A DNA stretch of 64,000 nucleotides from Clostridia bacterium (lineage in GTDB: Bacteria; Bacillota; Clostridia; Acetivibrionales; JAFADI01). The stretch covers positions 1-64,000 of the forward strand of contig JAOAAU010000056.1 of NCBI GenBank assembly GCA_026418695.1, read 5' to 3'. Numbering within the stretch: position 1 is the stretch's first letter; the number at the start of each line of letters is the position of its first letter. Under the pieces are notes generated by a model, which searched no databases, was not told where the DNA came from, and worked only from the letters and a program-made list of their open reading frames with translations. This document shows, one piece after another, positions 1,221 through 22,175 of the stretch. A program made the translations under genes and the position numbers.

Positions 1221-1932
1221 GTGCTTCCGCCTCCATTTCCTGCGGTTAAATCTGTTTTTATCCATGTCAAACTTATAATTATATGTTTAATATACTCTTT
1301 TCAAGATCTGGATTTAGGACCCTTTCTTCATTTATACAGCTGTGCTGAAGAGTTTTGTCAAATACCCCTTCGTAGCAATAACCAAGCTCTAAGGTATCTG
1401 TTTTACGGCAAGTAAAATATAGAATTAAATTTTTCTTGGTTTCCACAGCTTAGAGCTTCGTTGATGATTACTTTGATTTCTATATCTTTTAGTATTCGTT
1501 ATCGATATAAAGTATAAATATAGCATTACTACTCTTTGTAAACTTATCGTTTAGGAAATAAATCGTGTTCGACAAATATTACTGTACTTTTTCGTAAAAA
1601 TAGCAATAATGTATAGGGTAACCCTTGATACAGGAAATTTTTATACACCATTTTGAATTAAAACTTTTATCCGGTGAAATATTAAAACGGCACATTCCGC
1701 AGGTACATTGTTGTTGTATATTACATGAGAATCATATAAGATTGAATAAACCAGGTTTTTACCAACCTAGCATTGGAGTGGACATAACGCAATCGTCAAA
1801 ATGATTTTACATGGAAGAACTGAATTTTCACGATGAAAAACAAGGAAATTGAAGCGCGATGAAAACACTTAACCGCGTTCAATATAGATTAAGAAATTGG
1901 GGCAACCCACAAAAACTAAGGTGGTAGAAAAT

Positions 1933-4176
1933 ATGAACATAACAGCGAACGCAGACGATATTTTAAAAATTGTGCATGGTGAACACTATGACCCTTTCTG
2001 TTGCTTGGGGATTCATCCGATTTGCAACAAAGAGGATGAAAAGAAAGGATTCAGCATCCGGGCTTTTATGCCGAATGCCAAGCTGATGAAAGTTATCTCA
2101 CTGGACAGTAATACCGTCTACGATATGAAAAGAATCAACGAAAGCGGATTCTTTGAAGCGATCATCGAGGACAAGACCGAGTTTTTCCCTTATAAATTTG
2201 AAGTAACCGATTTTAACGACATCAGCTTTTCTACATATGACTCCTATAGCTTCTGGCCTGTGCTTACCGACTTTGATCTCCATCTTTTCAATGAGGGAAA
2301 TCATCACCGGATTTTTGACAAGTTGGGCGCCCATGTTATGACCATTAACGGGATCGAGGGCACACTGTTCTGTGTCTGGGCTCCTTGTGCGAAGCGTGTA
2401 AGCGTGGTAGGACATTTCAACCAATGGGATGGCAGAAGGCATCAGATGCGTCAATTAGGCTGTTCAGGCGTTTGGGAAATATTCATTCCCGGGATAGGCC
2501 AATCAGAAGTATACAAGTATGAGATCAAAACACCAGCCGGGGAAATCTATATTAAGGCAGATCCCTATGCATTTTTCTCTGAGCTTCGCCCAAATACCGC
2601 TTCAATTGTTTATGATTTGAACAAATATGTATGGAATGACAATGAATGGATTCAAAATAGAGACAGCAGCAATATATTTGAAAAGCCTGTCTCCATCTAT
2701 GAAGTTCATCTGGGTTCATGGTCGAGAGTCCCTGGCGAAACCGGGCCGGGCGGCGAGGAAGACGGGGGCGGCAGATTTTTAACTTACAAGGAATTTGCTG
2801 ATAAACTGGTTTCTTACGTTAAGGAAATGGGTTATACCCATATTGAGCTCCTCCCTGTTGCAGAGCACCCATATGACGGTTCCTGGGGATACCAGATTAC
2901 CGGTTATTATTCTATTACCAGCCGGTATGGAAAGCCTGAAGACTTTATGTATCTGATCGATTTATGCCACCAGAATGGCATCGGCGTAATCATGGATTGG
3001 GTTCCGGCTCACTTCCCTAAAGACGGACATGGACTTGCCCGATTTGATGGAACCGCAGTCTATGAACACGCAGATTCCAAGCAGGGAGAGCATCCGGATT
3101 GGGGCACCCATATTTTCAATTACGGGCGTCATGAAGTTAGAAACTTCCTGGTTTCCAATGCGATTTTCTGGTTTGAAAAATATCATATCGACGGTTTGAG
3201 AGTGGATGCCGTTGCCTCCATGCTTTATCTGGATTATGCCAAAAAAGAAGGCGAGTGGATTCCCAACAAATGGGGCGGCCGGGAAAACGTTGATGCCATT
3301 GAGTTCTTGCGCCAGTTGAATTCAACAGTATACCAGTACTTTCCGGGCGTTATGATGATCGCTGAAGAATCCACCTCATGGCCATTGGTATCAAAACCGC
3401 CTTATCTTGGAGGTCTCGGGTTCTCCTTCAAGTGGAACATGGGCTGGATGAATGATTATTTAAAATATATCAGCATGGATTCTATTTATAGAAAATACCA
3501 CCACAATCTGATAACATTCTCTATGATGTATGCCTTCTCTGAAAACTTCACCCTGGTGCTTTCCCATGACGAGGTGGTCCATGGCAAATGCTCCATGCTC
3601 AGCAAAATGCCGGGGGATTACTGGCAGAAATTTGCCGGTCTACGAGCAAGCTATGGGTATATGTATGGACATCCCGGAAAGAAACTGATGTTTATGGGCA
3701 GTGAATATGGTCAATTCATCGAGTGGGATTATAAGAAGAGCCTGGATTGGTTCCTTCTGGATTATGATATGCATAAGAAGATGCAGAATTACGTAAGAGA
3801 CCTGAATCACCTGTACACCACTGAGAAGGCCCTCTATGAAGTGGATTTCCATTATGACGGGTTTGAGTGGATTGACTGTAATGACTCTGAGCACAGCGTT
3901 GTATCCTTTATACGTAAGGGCAAAGACTGGCATGATTCGCTGATCTTCGTTTGCAACTTTACACCGGTGGTTCACGACCATTACAGGATCGGTGTTCCAT
4001 TTGACCTTTTTTATAAGGAAATCTTCAATAGTGATGCTGAAATTTATGGCGGAAGCAATGTCGGAAACTGCGGCGGGCTCCAGGCCGAACAGATCCCTTG
4101 CCATAACAAGCCTTATTCGTTGGGTTTGCGTATTCCGCCATTAAGCGTTTTTGTTCTGAAACCTGTTTTTGAATAG
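1933..4176 (+). CDS. glgB: 1,4-alpha-glucan branching enzyme
   Basis: GH13 branching-enzyme motifs (EVHLGSWSR, GLRVDAVASMLYLDY, AEESTSWP, LSHDEVVHGKCSM); start moved to ATG 1933, preceded by aaggtgg. Confidence 0.96.
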   Translation: MNITANADDILKIVHGEHYDPFCCLGIHPICNKEDEKKGFSIRAFMPNAKLMKVISLDSNTVYDMKRINESGFFEAIIEDKTEFFPYKFEVTDFNDISFSTYDSYSFWPVLTDFDLHLFNEGNHHRIFDKLGAHVMTINGIEGTLFCVWAPCAKRVSVVGHFNQWDGRRHQMRQLGCSGVWEIFIPGIGQSEVYKYEIKTPAGEIYIKADPYAFFSELRPNTASIVYDLNKYVWNDNEWIQNRDSSNIFEKPVSIYEVHLGSWSRVPGETGPGGEEDGGGRFLTYKEFADKLVSYVKEMGYTHIELLPVAEHPYDGSWGYQITGYYSITSRYGKPEDFMYLIDLCHQNGIGVIMDWVPAHFPKDGHGLARFDGTAVYEHADSKQGEHPDWGTHIFNYGRHEVRNFLVSNAIFWFEKYHIDGLRVDAVASMLYLDYAKKEGEWIPNKWGGRENVDAIEFLRQLNSTVYQYFPGVMMIAEESTSWPLVSKPPYLGGLGFSFKWNMGWMNDYLKYISMDSIYRKYHHNLITFSMMYAFSENFTLVLSHDEVVHGKCSMLSKMPGDYWQKFAGLRASYGYMYGHPGKKLMFMGSEYGQFIEWDYKKSLDWFLLDYDMHKKMQNYVRDLNHLYTTEKALYEVDFHYDGFEWIDCNDSEHSVVSFIRKGKDWHDSLIFVCNFTPVVHDHYRIGVPFDLFYKEIFNSDAEIYGGSNVGNCGGLQAEQIPCHNKPYSLGLRIPPLSVFVLKPVFE

Positions 4177-4329: not shown

Positions 4330-6312
4330 CTATTGAAGCGTTGCCGCTTGCAAAGTAATGTTTCCATAACTTGAATCATACGCTTGATCGATTACATATT
4401 TTACAGTCAGCGTTTGACTGCTGGATGCGGCTTTAAAATTAATGCTGATCACTTTGCATGTTGTTCCCGAGGATGAGTCTATATAGCTGTTATACTCTGT
4501 TGCACTTCCGTCACTTAGGGTTGCAGTCACCTTTCCTTTTGCCTTCCATGCACCTAAATATAGCCTAAGGGTCTTTTGTGTCGTATCCGCAGGTACTGTA
4601 AGCTGAAAGCCGTTTCCTTCTCTTGTGACATAGATCCCGGTTCCACTATTGCTAACAGTATCGTTTGGGGTTCCTCCTGTCCAGGAGAACAGTACTGGAT
4701 TGTCTGCAAACCAGTTTACGGAACCGCTGCCAATTCTTGAATAGTTGCCGATCTGTTGGGTTACTCCGTTTTTATGGTTAAACTTTGATTCACCGTCGAA
4801 TCCCCAATGTGCCCAGTCCTTGGTCCCTTCATTGCTCAGATTGACTGAATATGCAGGTGCTGCCGCACTTCCGGAAAGTGTTCCGGTCAATGCTGAGATC
4901 CTTGCCAGCGTGATATAATCAAGATTTGCATATCCTGTATCATTTGAATCATACTTATAGGCAATAGTATTGTTTCCTGCACTCAAAGACAGCCTCTCGG
5001 TAGCGTCGGACCAGTTGTCCCAGCTGGCAAGGTTTGCAAGGGAGATCTGTCTTACCCTGGTGCCATTTACGTAAATTCCCAGTGTTCTGGTAGTTCCGGT
5101 CGCATTGGAATATCTGAGCTTTACGTCATACTCCCCTGCTGTATCCACATTGACCGTAAAGGTTGCTGTTGCTCCTTGATTCCATAATCCGCTGACAAAT
5201 CCGTTTCCTGAGTAACCTGAATGATTGGTGCTGATTGTTGCACCGTTGGATAAGGACGCATTTTCGGCTTCATATCCGTTAGCAGGGTTTACAGTACTGC
5301 TTCCGCTATACACTTCAAACTCATATAGGGAGTATCCGTAGTTGGTAGCTCTGGCCGTGGCATACATCTTCACATATCTTGCATCGGTCGCTGCAAATAC
5401 GATATTGTCGGTTCCGCCATCCCCGGAGTTGGTGGAGTAAATCTCGGTCCAATTGCTTGCATCACTGGACTTATAAAGCTTATACTCCTTGGCATAGGCA
5501 GCTTCCCAGATTAGTTTCACCTTATTGATACTTTTTACACTTCCAAGATCAACAAATATCCACTGCGGATTGCTTCCATATTCACTGGACCAACGGGTAG
5601 ACGTATTCCCATCCACTGCCTTTTGGGCGCTGTAAGTTGAGTTATAGTCGGAAGAAGATCTGATTGACTTATTTAAAGCGAGATTTGTGCCGGTGCTGGT
5701 ATTATTGTCATCATCCTCTTCATCGTCATCCCCGTCTTCAATAATTACTGAACCGGTCTCTTCATCCCATTCTACTTTTTGATGGAATTTCTCAGCGATG
5801 AACCTCACCGGTACAACAATTCTGCTGTTTTCCGATCTTGCCGGTACATCGATTCTATATTCCTTTCCGTTTACTATTACAACATCGCTGCCCAGTTTGA
5901 TTTTAATCACTGTATCGCCTTTGGTGATGGTTGCAGTCCCTGTTGCTTCGTTCCACTCTACTTTCGCTCCGAGTGCTTGTACAATAGCCCTGATAGGTAC
6001 GAGTACACGCCCTTCCTTGAGAACGGGAGGTACATCCGTCTCAACTTCTTCGCCATTGATAAAGATCACATTTGCCTTAATATTATATTCGTTCTTGATG
6101 TTCACAATCTGTTTCACGTATTCCTGTCTTTCACTTTTACCTTTTCCATTATCCTTGTTTTTGTCCTTTTCCTTATAATAGTCCTTTAATTTCTGCTTCC
6201 AGTATTTCATCTCGTCTTCTTTATCTTTCTTGTTTGGCTTCGCATAAGCGACAGAAAAACTTGTTGTTAAAACCAGCATCAATGAAATGATGATGCATAT
6301 CATTTTTTTCAT
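4330..6312 (-). CDS. Secreted protein: copper-amine-oxidase N-like (stalk) domain, F5/8-type C (discoidin) domain, CBM6/35-like domain
   Basis: Signal peptide MKKMICIIISLMLVLTTSFSVAYA; duplicated VFINGEEVETDVPPVLKEGRVLVPIRAIVQALGAKVEW-type repeats; discoidin-like SIRSSSDYNSTYSAQKAVDGNTSTRWSS; YEAENASLSNGA CBM-like. Start moved to ATG 6312 (SD aaggagggg). Confidence 0.85.
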   Translation of the reverse strand: MKKMICIIISLMLVLTTSFSVAYAKPNKKDKEDEMKYWKQKLKDYYKEKDKNKDNGKGKSERQEYVKQIVNIKNEYNIKANVIFINGEEVETDVPPVLKEGRVLVPIRAIVQALGAKVEWNEATGTATITKGDTVIKIKLGSDVVIVNGKEYRIDVPARSENSRIVVPVRFIAEKFHQKVEWDEETGSVIIEDGDDDEEDDDNNTSTGTNLALNKSIRSSSDYNSTYSAQKAVDGNTSTRWSSEYGSNPQWIFVDLGSVKSINKVKLIWEAAYAKEYKLYKSSDASNWTEIYSTNSGDGGTDNIVFAATDARYVKMYATARATNYGYSLYEFEVYSGSSTVNPANGYEAENASLSNGATISTNHSGYSGNGFVSGLWNQGATATFTVNVDTAGEYDVKLRYSNATGTTRTLGIYVNGTRVRQISLANLASWDNWSDATERLSLSAGNNTIAYKYDSNDTGYANLDYITLARISALTGTLSGSAAAPAYSVNLSNEGTKDWAHWGFDGESKFNHKNGVTQQIGNYSRIGSGSVNWFADNPVLFSWTGGTPNDTVSNSGTGIYVTREGNGFQLTVPADTTQKTLRLYLGAWKAKGKVTATLSDGSATEYNSYIDSSSGTTCKVISINFKAASSSQTLTVKYVIDQAYDSSYGNITLQAATLQ

Positions 6313-6315
6313 AAT

Positions 6316-6364
6316 AAAAACCCCTCCTTGATGAATGTTTACTATATACATTCGAGGGGTTTTT
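6316..6364 (-). promoter_or_regulatory. Hairpin overlapping the SD of the downstream stalk gene; also terminator-like for the upstream gene
   Basis: AAAAACCCCTC (6316-6326) pairs with GAGGGGTTTTT (6354-6364); inner GAATGT (6333-6338)/ACATTC (6348-6353); on the minus strand followed by TTTTT. Confidence 0.75.
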
Positions 6365-6379
6365 TATTATTTTAGGGTA
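6342..6379 (-). promoter_or_regulatory. Candidate SigI-type promoter of the stalk/CBM gene
   Basis: Minus-strand TACCCTAAAATAATAAAAAACCCCTCGAATGTATATAG; same layout as 7399-7436. Confidence 0.5.
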
Positions 6380-6426
6380 CAATTTCATTTTTTTCTAAAT
6401 TTCATGAACAAAATTATGCTTTTTAA

Positions 6427-7470: not shown

Positions 7471-7492
7471 ATCGCCTCTACCTGAGGCGATC
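7471..7492 (-). terminator. Intrinsic terminator of the sigI-rsgI operon
   Basis: GATCGCCTC-aggta-GAGGCGAT followed by T8 on the minus strand. Confidence 0.85.
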
Positions 7493-7529: not shown

Positions 7530-8654
7530 CTATTGATCCTTTTTACTGTTTTTCCGCTTATCCTGCTTTTCGTTTTTGTCACTTTTATCTTTTGACTCAT
7601 GACGATCCCTGCTGTTGTTCTCTTTATCATCCTCTATTTTTTCACTGTTTTTTTTATCCTGCTGCTCTGTTTTTCTATTATCCATATGCTGGCCGTCCTG
7701 TTTTTTCTCACTCAACTGTTTTTCATCGCGCTCATTGGATTTGCTGTCCTTCCGATCCGACTTTTTTGAACTGTTTCTGTCTTCTTTTCGATCTTCTTTA
7801 TCTTTGCCCTCTATTTTTTTATCCTCAGTCTTTTTATTTGCATCCGTTGAATCAGTCTTCTCATCTGTTTTGGCTGAGTCTGCTTCGCCCTGCTGATCTT
7901 TTGTTTCTTTCTTTTCGTATCGTTCCTGCTTTTTGCCTTCCTTAATGTGCTTCATGATCTCTTTTACGGGTGCGTTCTTATACTCTTCCATCTTCGCTTG
8001 TGGATTTACTTCCTGCAGCCTTTCGATCAGGAGCATCTTTCCTGGGGAAACGCCTGCCTTGCGTGCGTCATCGTGTCTTTGGATATTCACATTTTCCACC
8101 ATGACTTCCGCTTTGACCTTTTCTGTCTGAAGTTCGGTCTTTGCGCTTTCCTCAAGCTTTTTCCTTATTTCTGTAGTCTTTTCATCACTCTTCCCGGAAA
8201 CGGTAATGAGTACATCGTTTTTTGCCTCTCCTGTCAGGTATCCTTCCTCTGCAGCCCTGTCCAGAATGAGGTCGACACCATCTTCTATGGATTTATTTTC
8301 AAAGACAACTTCCTTGATAATTTTTTGCCCATCCTCATTTAATGCTTCTATCCGGATGATTCTGTTAAAGATATTCGATGTAATCTCAACGCTGGGATTG
8401 ATATCAATGTTGATATAGCTGTAAGGGGTATAGTAGCCATAGACGCCAAGTCCAAGACTCAAAAACAGAAGGACTGCCGCTGCCAGCGACGAAACCTTTT
8501 GCCACGAGTTTATACTGATTACAGACCTTGCAGCAGGCAAATCAATTTCGTTTCCGACCTTCAAATTGCCGCTGTTTCTAATCTTGATGAAAGCCCCATT
8601 TTTATCGAGAGCTACTGCATATTGATTTTTAATTTCTACGATTACCGCTTTCAT
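7530..8654 (-). CDS. rsgI: RsgI-like transmembrane anti-sigma factor with a very charged C-terminal tail
   Basis: N-terminal MKAVIVEIKNQYAVALDKNGAFIKIRNSGNLKVGNEIDL (RsgI_N-type), one TM, YINIDINPSVEITSNIFNRIIRIEALNEDG; start moved to ATG 8654. Confidence 0.9.
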   Translation of the reverse strand: MKAVIVEIKNQYAVALDKNGAFIKIRNSGNLKVGNEIDLPAARSVISINSWQKVSSLAAAVLLFLSLGLGVYGYYTPYSYINIDINPSVEITSNIFNRIIRIEALNEDGQKIIKEVVFENKSIEDGVDLILDRAAEEGYLTGEAKNDVLITVSGKSDEKTTEIRKKLEESAKTELQTEKVKAEVMVENVNIQRHDDARKAGVSPGKMLLIERLQEVNPQAKMEEYKNAPVKEIMKHIKEGKKQERYEKKETKDQQGEADSAKTDEKTDSTDANKKTEDKKIEGKDKEDRKEDRNSSKKSDRKDSKSNERDEKQLSEKKQDGQHMDNRKTEQQDKKNSEKIEDDKENNSRDRHESKDKSDKNEKQDKRKNSKKDQ

Positions 8655-8658
8655 CCCT

Positions 8659-9363
8659 TCACCCCCATTGCACATAACTGCTGATATACTGATAATCCCC
8701 TGTTCGGATGATCACCACCGCTAATATATATTTTCGCATTCGCTCAATATTTTTTCGGGGTAACCCTAAAGTTTTTTCAATTTCTGCTATCGGAAGCACC
8801 CTTTTGTCTTTGATCTGCCGGATCAGATCGTGCCTGGACAGGAGAAATCCAATAATCTCCATGCACATTTTCCGGGTCTTGTCATGCTTGGGTGAAACCT
8901 CTGCCAGTTCAAAAAAAGAAATGCCCCACGCATCCAGCTCCTTCTTTAACTCCTCTATCTCAAGCTTTCTGTATTCGCTAACCTTTTCCTCTGAGTAGCT
9001 TTCAATAGACTTTTCCGCACTTAAGTCCCGTTCATTCTCTTCATCCTCGGTATGGTATTCACTGATCGAAACCACACCGGCATGCTTTTTTTCTTTTCTA
9101 TAATAATCAATCAGCCTTCGTTTAATAACGTTTTGTGAAAATGAAAGGAAGTTTCCTTTAAACAAGTTATAGGAATTGACAGCCTCTACAAAAGCCAGCA
9201 ATCCGATGCTCAATTCATCATCCTCACCGTACCGCATATAGCGCCCGGTAGATTTTTCAACGCATGAAGCGATAAAGGGCTTGTATTCTTCTACAAGCCT
9301 GTTGATTTCTTCGTTATTCCCTTTTATTTTTTTTACCCTGTCATTGATGGAATTAAATTGCAT
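8659..9363 (-). CDS. sigI: RNA polymerase sigma-I factor
   Basis: SigI-type LVEEYKPFIASCVEKSTGRYMRYGEDDELSIGLLAFVEAVNSYN...FLSFSQNVIKRRLIDYYRKE; C-terminal LPRKNIERMRKYILAVVIIRTGDY; start moved to ATG 9363 with SD gggagg. Confidence 0.95.
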   Translation of the reverse strand: MQFNSINDRVKKIKGNNEEINRLVEEYKPFIASCVEKSTGRYMRYGEDDELSIGLLAFVEAVNSYNLFKGNFLSFSQNVIKRRLIDYYRKEKKHAGVVSISEYHTEDEENERDLSAEKSIESYSEEKVSEYRKLEIEELKKELDAWGISFFELAEVSPKHDKTRKMCMEIIGFLLSRHDLIRQIKDKRVLPIAEIEKTLGLPRKNIERMRKYILAVVIIRTGDYQYISSYVQWG

Positions 9364-9508
9364 CAAGATCCTCCCTGGCAAGGATATTCCCTGTATATGA
9401 GTACGATTATATCATCAAGAAATACAAAAAACAAATTCCTTGGGGTAGTGCTCTACAATGCCTTAAGCAGCCCAATATTCCTGATTATTCAATGGTTCTT
9501 TCCGGATT

Positions 9509-21880: not shown

Positions 21881-22175
21881 TAAAAAAACCCTCGAGCCTG
21901 CACAAAATATTTTGCAGGGACGAAGGGATCCTGTACTTCTTCGCGGTACCACCCTGATTCAATGCATCCGGTTAAGGATACATTCTCAGTAGGAGCAGAG
22001 TCAAACTCATACACCTGGACTGTAACGTGGTCAACGTCATCATCTACTGTTAAGTTTCAATGATGCAGCTCCGGAACGAGTTATTCATATGCTTCATGGT
22101 TCGGTTCACACCCTCCACCGACTCTCTTGACCAATCCTACACATCTTAATTCCATCATTGCTTTCGTAAATTAGA
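21881..22175 (-). promoter_or_regulatory. T-box riboswitch leader of the ilvB-ilvN-ilvC-leuA operon
   Basis: Minus strand carries the T-box AGGGTGGTACCGCG (21942-21955), AGAGAG...GGTGGAGGGTGTGAACC Stem I elements, and the terminator CCCTTCGtCCCTGCA...TGCAGGCTCGAGGGTTTTTTT (21881-21928). Confidence 0.95.

Follow-up and report, generated by a model that had tools for sequence, protein, structure and literature searches.

A candidate SigI promoter and a hairpin in a sigI-rsgI locus

We analyzed a 64-kb stretch of DNA (64,000 nucleotides; hereafter, the window) from a Clostridia bacterium, in which the minus strand carries a gene for the RNA polymerase sigma factor SigI, the anti-sigma factor gene rsgI, a stalk gene, and a gene for a secreted carbohydrate-binding protein (the CBM gene; Table 1). 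Direct reading of the sequence places a minus-strand stem-loop in the gap between the stalk gene and the CBM gene, with sigI and rsgI located 1–3 kb upstream of it. As sigI belongs to the same locus, the distance from it to the candidate SigI promoter of the CBM gene described below is about 2.3 kb. The RsgI of the window carries no CBM domain in a Pfam scan, and a separate secreted protein carries one. SigI-type sites also precede the sigI operon, both here (9794-9766, minus strand, ahead of a small Cys-rich ORF upstream of sigI that is zinc-ribbon-like by eye and starts with an ATG at about 9738) and in several relatives. Elsewhere in the window, a T-box leader (21913-22167, minus strand, 107.8 bits) is the only Rfam match.

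Table 1. Positions of genes, promoter elements and hairpin segments, numbered along the window.
Feature	Position	Strand	Basis
sigI, RNA polymerase sigma factor SigI	8659-9381	-	NCBIfam SigI, 310 bits (cut-off 306)
rsgI, anti-sigma factor	7530-8675	-	RsgI_N and RsgI_M domains
Terminator behind rsgI	7471-7491	-	
SigI-type promoter of stalk gene (candidate), ACCCC-N20-CGAA	7407-7435	-	Motif scan
Stalk gene upstream of CBM gene, 283 aa	6427-7278	-	Cu_amine_oxidN1
-35 region of SigI-type promoter (candidate), ACCCT	6374-6378	-	Sequence; consensus PMC4711584; motif in homologous loci
A-tract of -35 element, AAAA	6370-6373	-	Sequence; A-tract motif PMC6056542
Hairpin 5' arm: ATAATAAAAA (6370-6361), unpaired A (6360), CCCCTC (6359-6354), GAATGT (6353-6348)	6348-6370	-	Folding
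-10 element (candidate), CGAA; C and GAA also part of hairpin 5' arm	6351-6354	-	Sequence; numbering PMC10575876
Hairpin loop, 9 nt	6339-6347	-	
Predicted transcription start range, about 6340	6338-6345	-	Inferred from CGAA at -14 to -11
Hairpin 3' arm: ACATTC (6338-6333), 6-nt bulge ATCAAG (6332-6327), GAGGGG (6326-6321), TTTTTATTAT (6320-6311)	6311-6338	-	Folding
Shine-Dalgarno sequence of CBM gene, AAGGAGGGG	6321-6329	-	Sequence; GAGGGG part paired in read-through RNA
CBM gene, secreted, 660 aa	4330-6312	-	Cu_amine_oxidN1, F5/8 type C, CBM35/CBM6

We confirmed that the hairpin is real and that its sequence features are as described in the original prediction. The 63-nt hairpin RNA folds at -21.1 kcal/mol (z = -5.4), a value equalled by none of 200 dinucleotide shuffles, and in a 141-nt context its z-score is -3.2, with 1 of 200 shuffles doing as well. 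The bulge of the proposed 17-bp stem is present, but the stem itself was underestimated and comprises up to 22 pairs. As had also been proposed, the 3' arm holds most of the Shine-Dalgarno (SD) sequence of the CBM gene, whose GAGGGG pairs with the CCCCTC of the 5' arm, and the pairing runs into the AUG of the CBM gene (6312-6310). A simple terminator scan of the window did not list this hairpin because the scan permits loops of 3–8 nt only and no bulge. We found no further copies of the hairpin DNA in the genome, where it is thus present as a single copy and not as a repeat.

The 5' arm overlaps a sequence that resembles known SigI promoters. The promoter descriptions that we drew on give the consensus as ACCCCC--AA-N15-CGAA----T in Bacillales and as CCCYYAAA-N13-14-CGWA for SigI3 of Clostridium thermocellum (PMC4711584), and present the A-tract as a general SigI promoter motif (PMC6056542). 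The CBM-gene site, ACCCT-AAAA-N15-CGAA-TGTAT, fits this published consensus in having a C-rich -35 region followed by an A-tract (ACCCT-AAAA, 6378-6370) and a CGWA at -10 with a T five bases on (CGAATGTAT; consensus CGAA----T). The distance between A-tract and CGAA matches the N15 of Bacillales, and the overall spacing (ACCCY-N19-CGAA) is one base under the N20 seen at almost every related site. The arrangement of TACCC (6379-6375) and CGAA (6354-6351) from which the SigI reading had started is present, together with AAAA at 6373-6370. Structures of SigI open complexes have CGAA at -14 to -11 (PMC10575876), which places the predicted +1 at about 6340, 11 bases past CGAA, and predicts a leader of 28 nt. 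The whole 5' arm is excluded from any RNA that starts at least 6 bases after CGAA. With the predicted +1 beyond the entire arm, the published numbering is in line with the earlier expectation that RNA from the CBM gene's own promoter would lack it.

Recurrence of the promoter motif in related genomes

We scanned the sigI loci of order-mates for ACCC(C/T)-N20-CGAA (the CBM-gene site of this genome and the G016 site have N19). The motif, with a spacing of N19 or N20, precedes genes of the stalk/CBM type in 12 genomes, namely this one (two genes), G001, G010, G008, G021, G028, G019, G005, G033, G011, G037, and G016, of which G011, G037 (contig 75), and G016 (contig 41) provide non-independent support because they were chosen through motif-search matches. 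The leader from the predicted start measures 24–35 nt in most of these genomes. The scan did not detect the strict pattern ahead of the stalk-type gene in G003, G017, G030, G002, and the sigI locus of G016. It should be kept in mind that motif counts do not rise above reversed-pattern controls, as in this genome TACCC-N19-22-CGAA is rarer than the same pattern reversed (64 vs 156) and a stricter pattern that includes an SD is near control across the order (14 vs 13), so that the evidence lies in the placement of the motif beside sigI and rsgI and not in its count. Together, the sigI and rsgI genes in the locus and the motif ahead of equivalent genes in relatives strengthen the earlier SigI-type reading and support the CBM-gene promoter as a candidate SigI-dependent promoter. 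This genome (G000) holds two more SigI-type motifs, at C78 and C125; one precedes the gene of a 354-aa protein that looks secreted, the other a 391-aa ORF resembling a histidine kinase.

A related-locus search with SigI returned one family-mate, G001, whose SigI is 71% identical to that of this genome and whose CBM protein is 62% identical over residues 1–473. In G001, the SigI-type promoter is kept and comes immediately after rsgI, and the hairpin is of a different sequence (TCCCTCC/GGAGGGA).

In addition, we observed a SigI-type motif (ACCCC-N20-CGAA, 8761-8733, minus strand) within the 3' end of sigI itself, ahead of rsgI. Of 25 sigI genes scored, 17 have the same motif in the sequence coding for IPRKxIERxRKY at the sigI 3' end. 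The CGAA is formed by the second Arg codon of this peptide, which is CGA in 24 out of 25 instances, compared to 62 out of 437 Arg codons across these genes (a count that includes these sites and is uncorrected for kinship and coding constraints). This codon use suggests that a SigI promoter has been selected for ahead of rsgI, and the motif is possibly an intragenic promoter for the anti-sigma gene.

Predicted Shine-Dalgarno pairing and termination, and alternative explanations

For 70 SD/start sites belonging to window ORFs that encode 100 aa or more, we compared the energy needed to open the SD (mean 3.9, sd 2.3 kcal/mol). In read-through RNA, the SD of the CBM gene costs 12.3–12.5 kcal/mol to open, the highest value of all 70 sites (next 8.1), whereas in RNA from the predicted start the folding model gives 2.8 kcal/mol. 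The corresponding modeled values for G001 are 13.2 and 5.7 kcal/mol. Among nine homologues, opening costs 1.3–5.9 kcal/mol in read-through RNA and 0.2–5.0 kcal/mol in start-site RNA, with a milder gap in G037 (5.9 vs 1.4) and a weak comparison in G033, where the SD that was picked is poorly placed. Base-by-base folding predicts nearly complete pairing of GAGGGG in read-through RNA, and the proposed blocking of the SD thus holds in silico. Its counterpart, a free SD in the short RNA, is too strong a term: the SD is easier to open there, but the models show GAGGGG partly paired with early coding sequence, strongly so in G001, where the SD is least free.

On the minus strand, the hairpin has the shape of an intrinsic terminator, with a G+C-rich stem (CCCCTC/GAGGGG) followed by a T-tract (TTTTTATT). 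The original prediction had pointed to this shape and to its TTTTT, but the T-run is unspecific, because T-rich spacers between SD and start codon also occur in homologues without the hairpin. This makes the gain of the anti-SD arm the likely evolutionary step. On the plus strand (6311-6370), the hairpin likewise ends in GAGGGG-TTTTTT, and it could therefore stop antisense RNA from the plus-strand ORF at 1897-4176.

The hairpin might be a compact element that merely ends the upstream gene and has been fused with the promoter and SD of the next gene for space, both genes being switched by SigI. There would then be almost no read-through RNA, and the SD masking would be a by-product without regulatory weight. 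In line with this, the G+C-rich stem and T-tract are accompanied by no other terminator-like structure from the stop codon of the upstream gene to the -35 region at either hairpin locus (this genome and G001), and the stalk gene has a SigI-type site of its own. Of 10 other sites, five (that of this genome's stalk gene and those in G021, G028, G005, and G033) have a terminator ahead of the -35 region and none that overlaps the promoter; the scan found no terminator at the remaining five, one of which (G010) has a stem without a good T-tract. Counting against it, the pairing takes in the SD itself and extends to the AUG. Moreover, the 6-nt bulge and the 9-nt loop are atypical for an intrinsic terminator, and the bulge may weaken termination, making some read-through plausible. 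Overall, we regard this explanation as possible but rather unlikely.

We consider it very improbable that the hairpin is a leader attenuator or RNA thermometer, in which a main sigma-A-type promoter (TAGAAA-17-TAAAAT, 6397-6369) would place the full hairpin in the RNA, to be opened by a signal or heat. Such a role would suit the 9/12 sigma-70-like match at this position and the cover of both SD and AUG by the hairpin, but sigma-70-like matches occur at chance level in the window (35 found vs 34.1 expected), and no Rfam family of known riboswitches or thermometers matched at the gathering threshold near 6300-6400. At 65 °C, 8.4 kcal/mol would still be needed to open the SD of the read-through RNA, and the gap between the two RNAs persists, which counts against a simple thermometer. 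Furthermore, the SigI motif and not a leader structure is conserved across homologues.

The hairpin is found in only two genomes, this one and G001, which are related by ancestry; nine other homologues keep the promoter without a significant hairpin (promoter-to-start folding z of -1.4 to +1.2). A pattern search for the anti-SD layout in 391 genomes of the class (a sample without G001) gave nine matches, spread over eight other genomes, and none of the nine was convincing by eye. Relative to the stem of this genome, that of G001 has U-A in place of one C-G pair and G-U in place of the A-U pair next to it on the outer side, which we take as modest evidence for maintained pairing. A neutral accident, in which the ancestor shared by the two genera acquired a functionless anti-SD within the promoter spacer, a stretch free to vary, would agree with the nine homologues that manage without a hairpin and with its restriction to two related genomes, but it seems hardly credible given pairing maintained despite changed arms and the strongest SD masking among the 70 window sites.

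A proposed composite insulator with an embedded promoter

The best reading of these observations, and in our judgment probably the correct one, is a composite insulator that combines a terminator with SD masking and has a SigI promoter embedded in it. The fold, the SD-opening energies, the sigI-rsgI neighborhood, the recurring motif, the hairpin kept with altered pairs in G001, the lack of another terminator at the two hairpin loci, and the T4 precedent described below speak for it; the N19 spacing, the restriction of the hairpin to two genomes of shared ancestry, the T-tract of hairpin-less homologues, the SD pairing in the short RNA of G001, the bulge, and the motif counts speak against it. 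The hairpin, the motif with its recurrence, and the difference in SD-opening energy come directly from computation, whereas the start site, termination, masking of translation, and SigI dependence are predictions. We propose that the 3' half of the terminator would be the CBM gene's own SD and T-rich spacer, while the 5' half (CCCCTC and flanks) would be shared with a SigI-dependent promoter, falling within its spacer and -10 region. RNA from the upstream gene would contain both halves and fold, and would then either end at the T-tract or proceed with the SD buried. RNA made by SigI polymerase, predicted to start at about 6340, would come without the 5' arm and with a short, more accessible leader. 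The original interpretation is thus partly supported. It had suggested that expression would be strictly dependent on the gene's own promoter; the upstream stalk gene, however, has the SigI-type site at 7435-7407, so that strict dependence may not hold and both genes may switch together in this genome. It may be mostly transcripts begun at other promoters that the element insulates against; in G001, the CBM gene would be kept apart from the sigI-rsgI transcript.

Related strategies exist in mobile elements and phages. In the transposase genes of IS10, IS50, and IS200, fold-back RNA reportedly conceals the ribosome-binding site (RBS) in transcripts entering from outside, and the present locus would resemble this read-through protection in hiding the RBS in incoming RNA, the gene here being an ordinary secreted-protein gene and not part of a mobile element. 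A hairpin with an internal promoter is a known arrangement in phage T4, where I-TevI, I-TevII, I-TevIII, segB, soc, and e have a promoter within an RBS-sequestering hairpin (PMC2988022). In these late and homing endonuclease genes, the RBS is buried in upstream-initiated RNA and RNA from the dedicated promoter cannot form the hairpin (PMC2988022), as is predicted for the CBM gene. Unlike in T4, the arrangement here, which is a prediction only, belongs to a bacterial chromosome, with a SigI-type instead of a phage late promoter and a hairpin that also resembles an intrinsic terminator. The targets of SigI/RsgI regulons in Bacillus and C. thermocellum include secreted carbohydrate-binding proteins, and the locus shares with these regulons the C-rich -35 region, the A-tract, CGAA, and a nearby sigI-rsgI pair (PMC4711584; PMC6056542). 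The overlap of promoter, terminator, and SD is a feature of the present locus that goes unmentioned in the portions of these accounts that we drew on.

More tentatively, we speculate that the locus represents a chromosomal device in which the initiating sigma factor decides translatability. The spacer of a SigI promoter would have evolved an anti-SD, such that SigI-initiated RNA is translated and other RNA is terminated or masked. Should the composite reading hold, the logic of T4, a promoter inside a masking hairpin, would operate on a bacterial chromosome, its building blocks being an SD, a T-rich spacer, and a SigI promoter's variable spacer. This would suggest that such sites escape terminator finders restricted to short loops, as in the scan used here, and that tightly packed genes may be insulated with almost no extra DNA.
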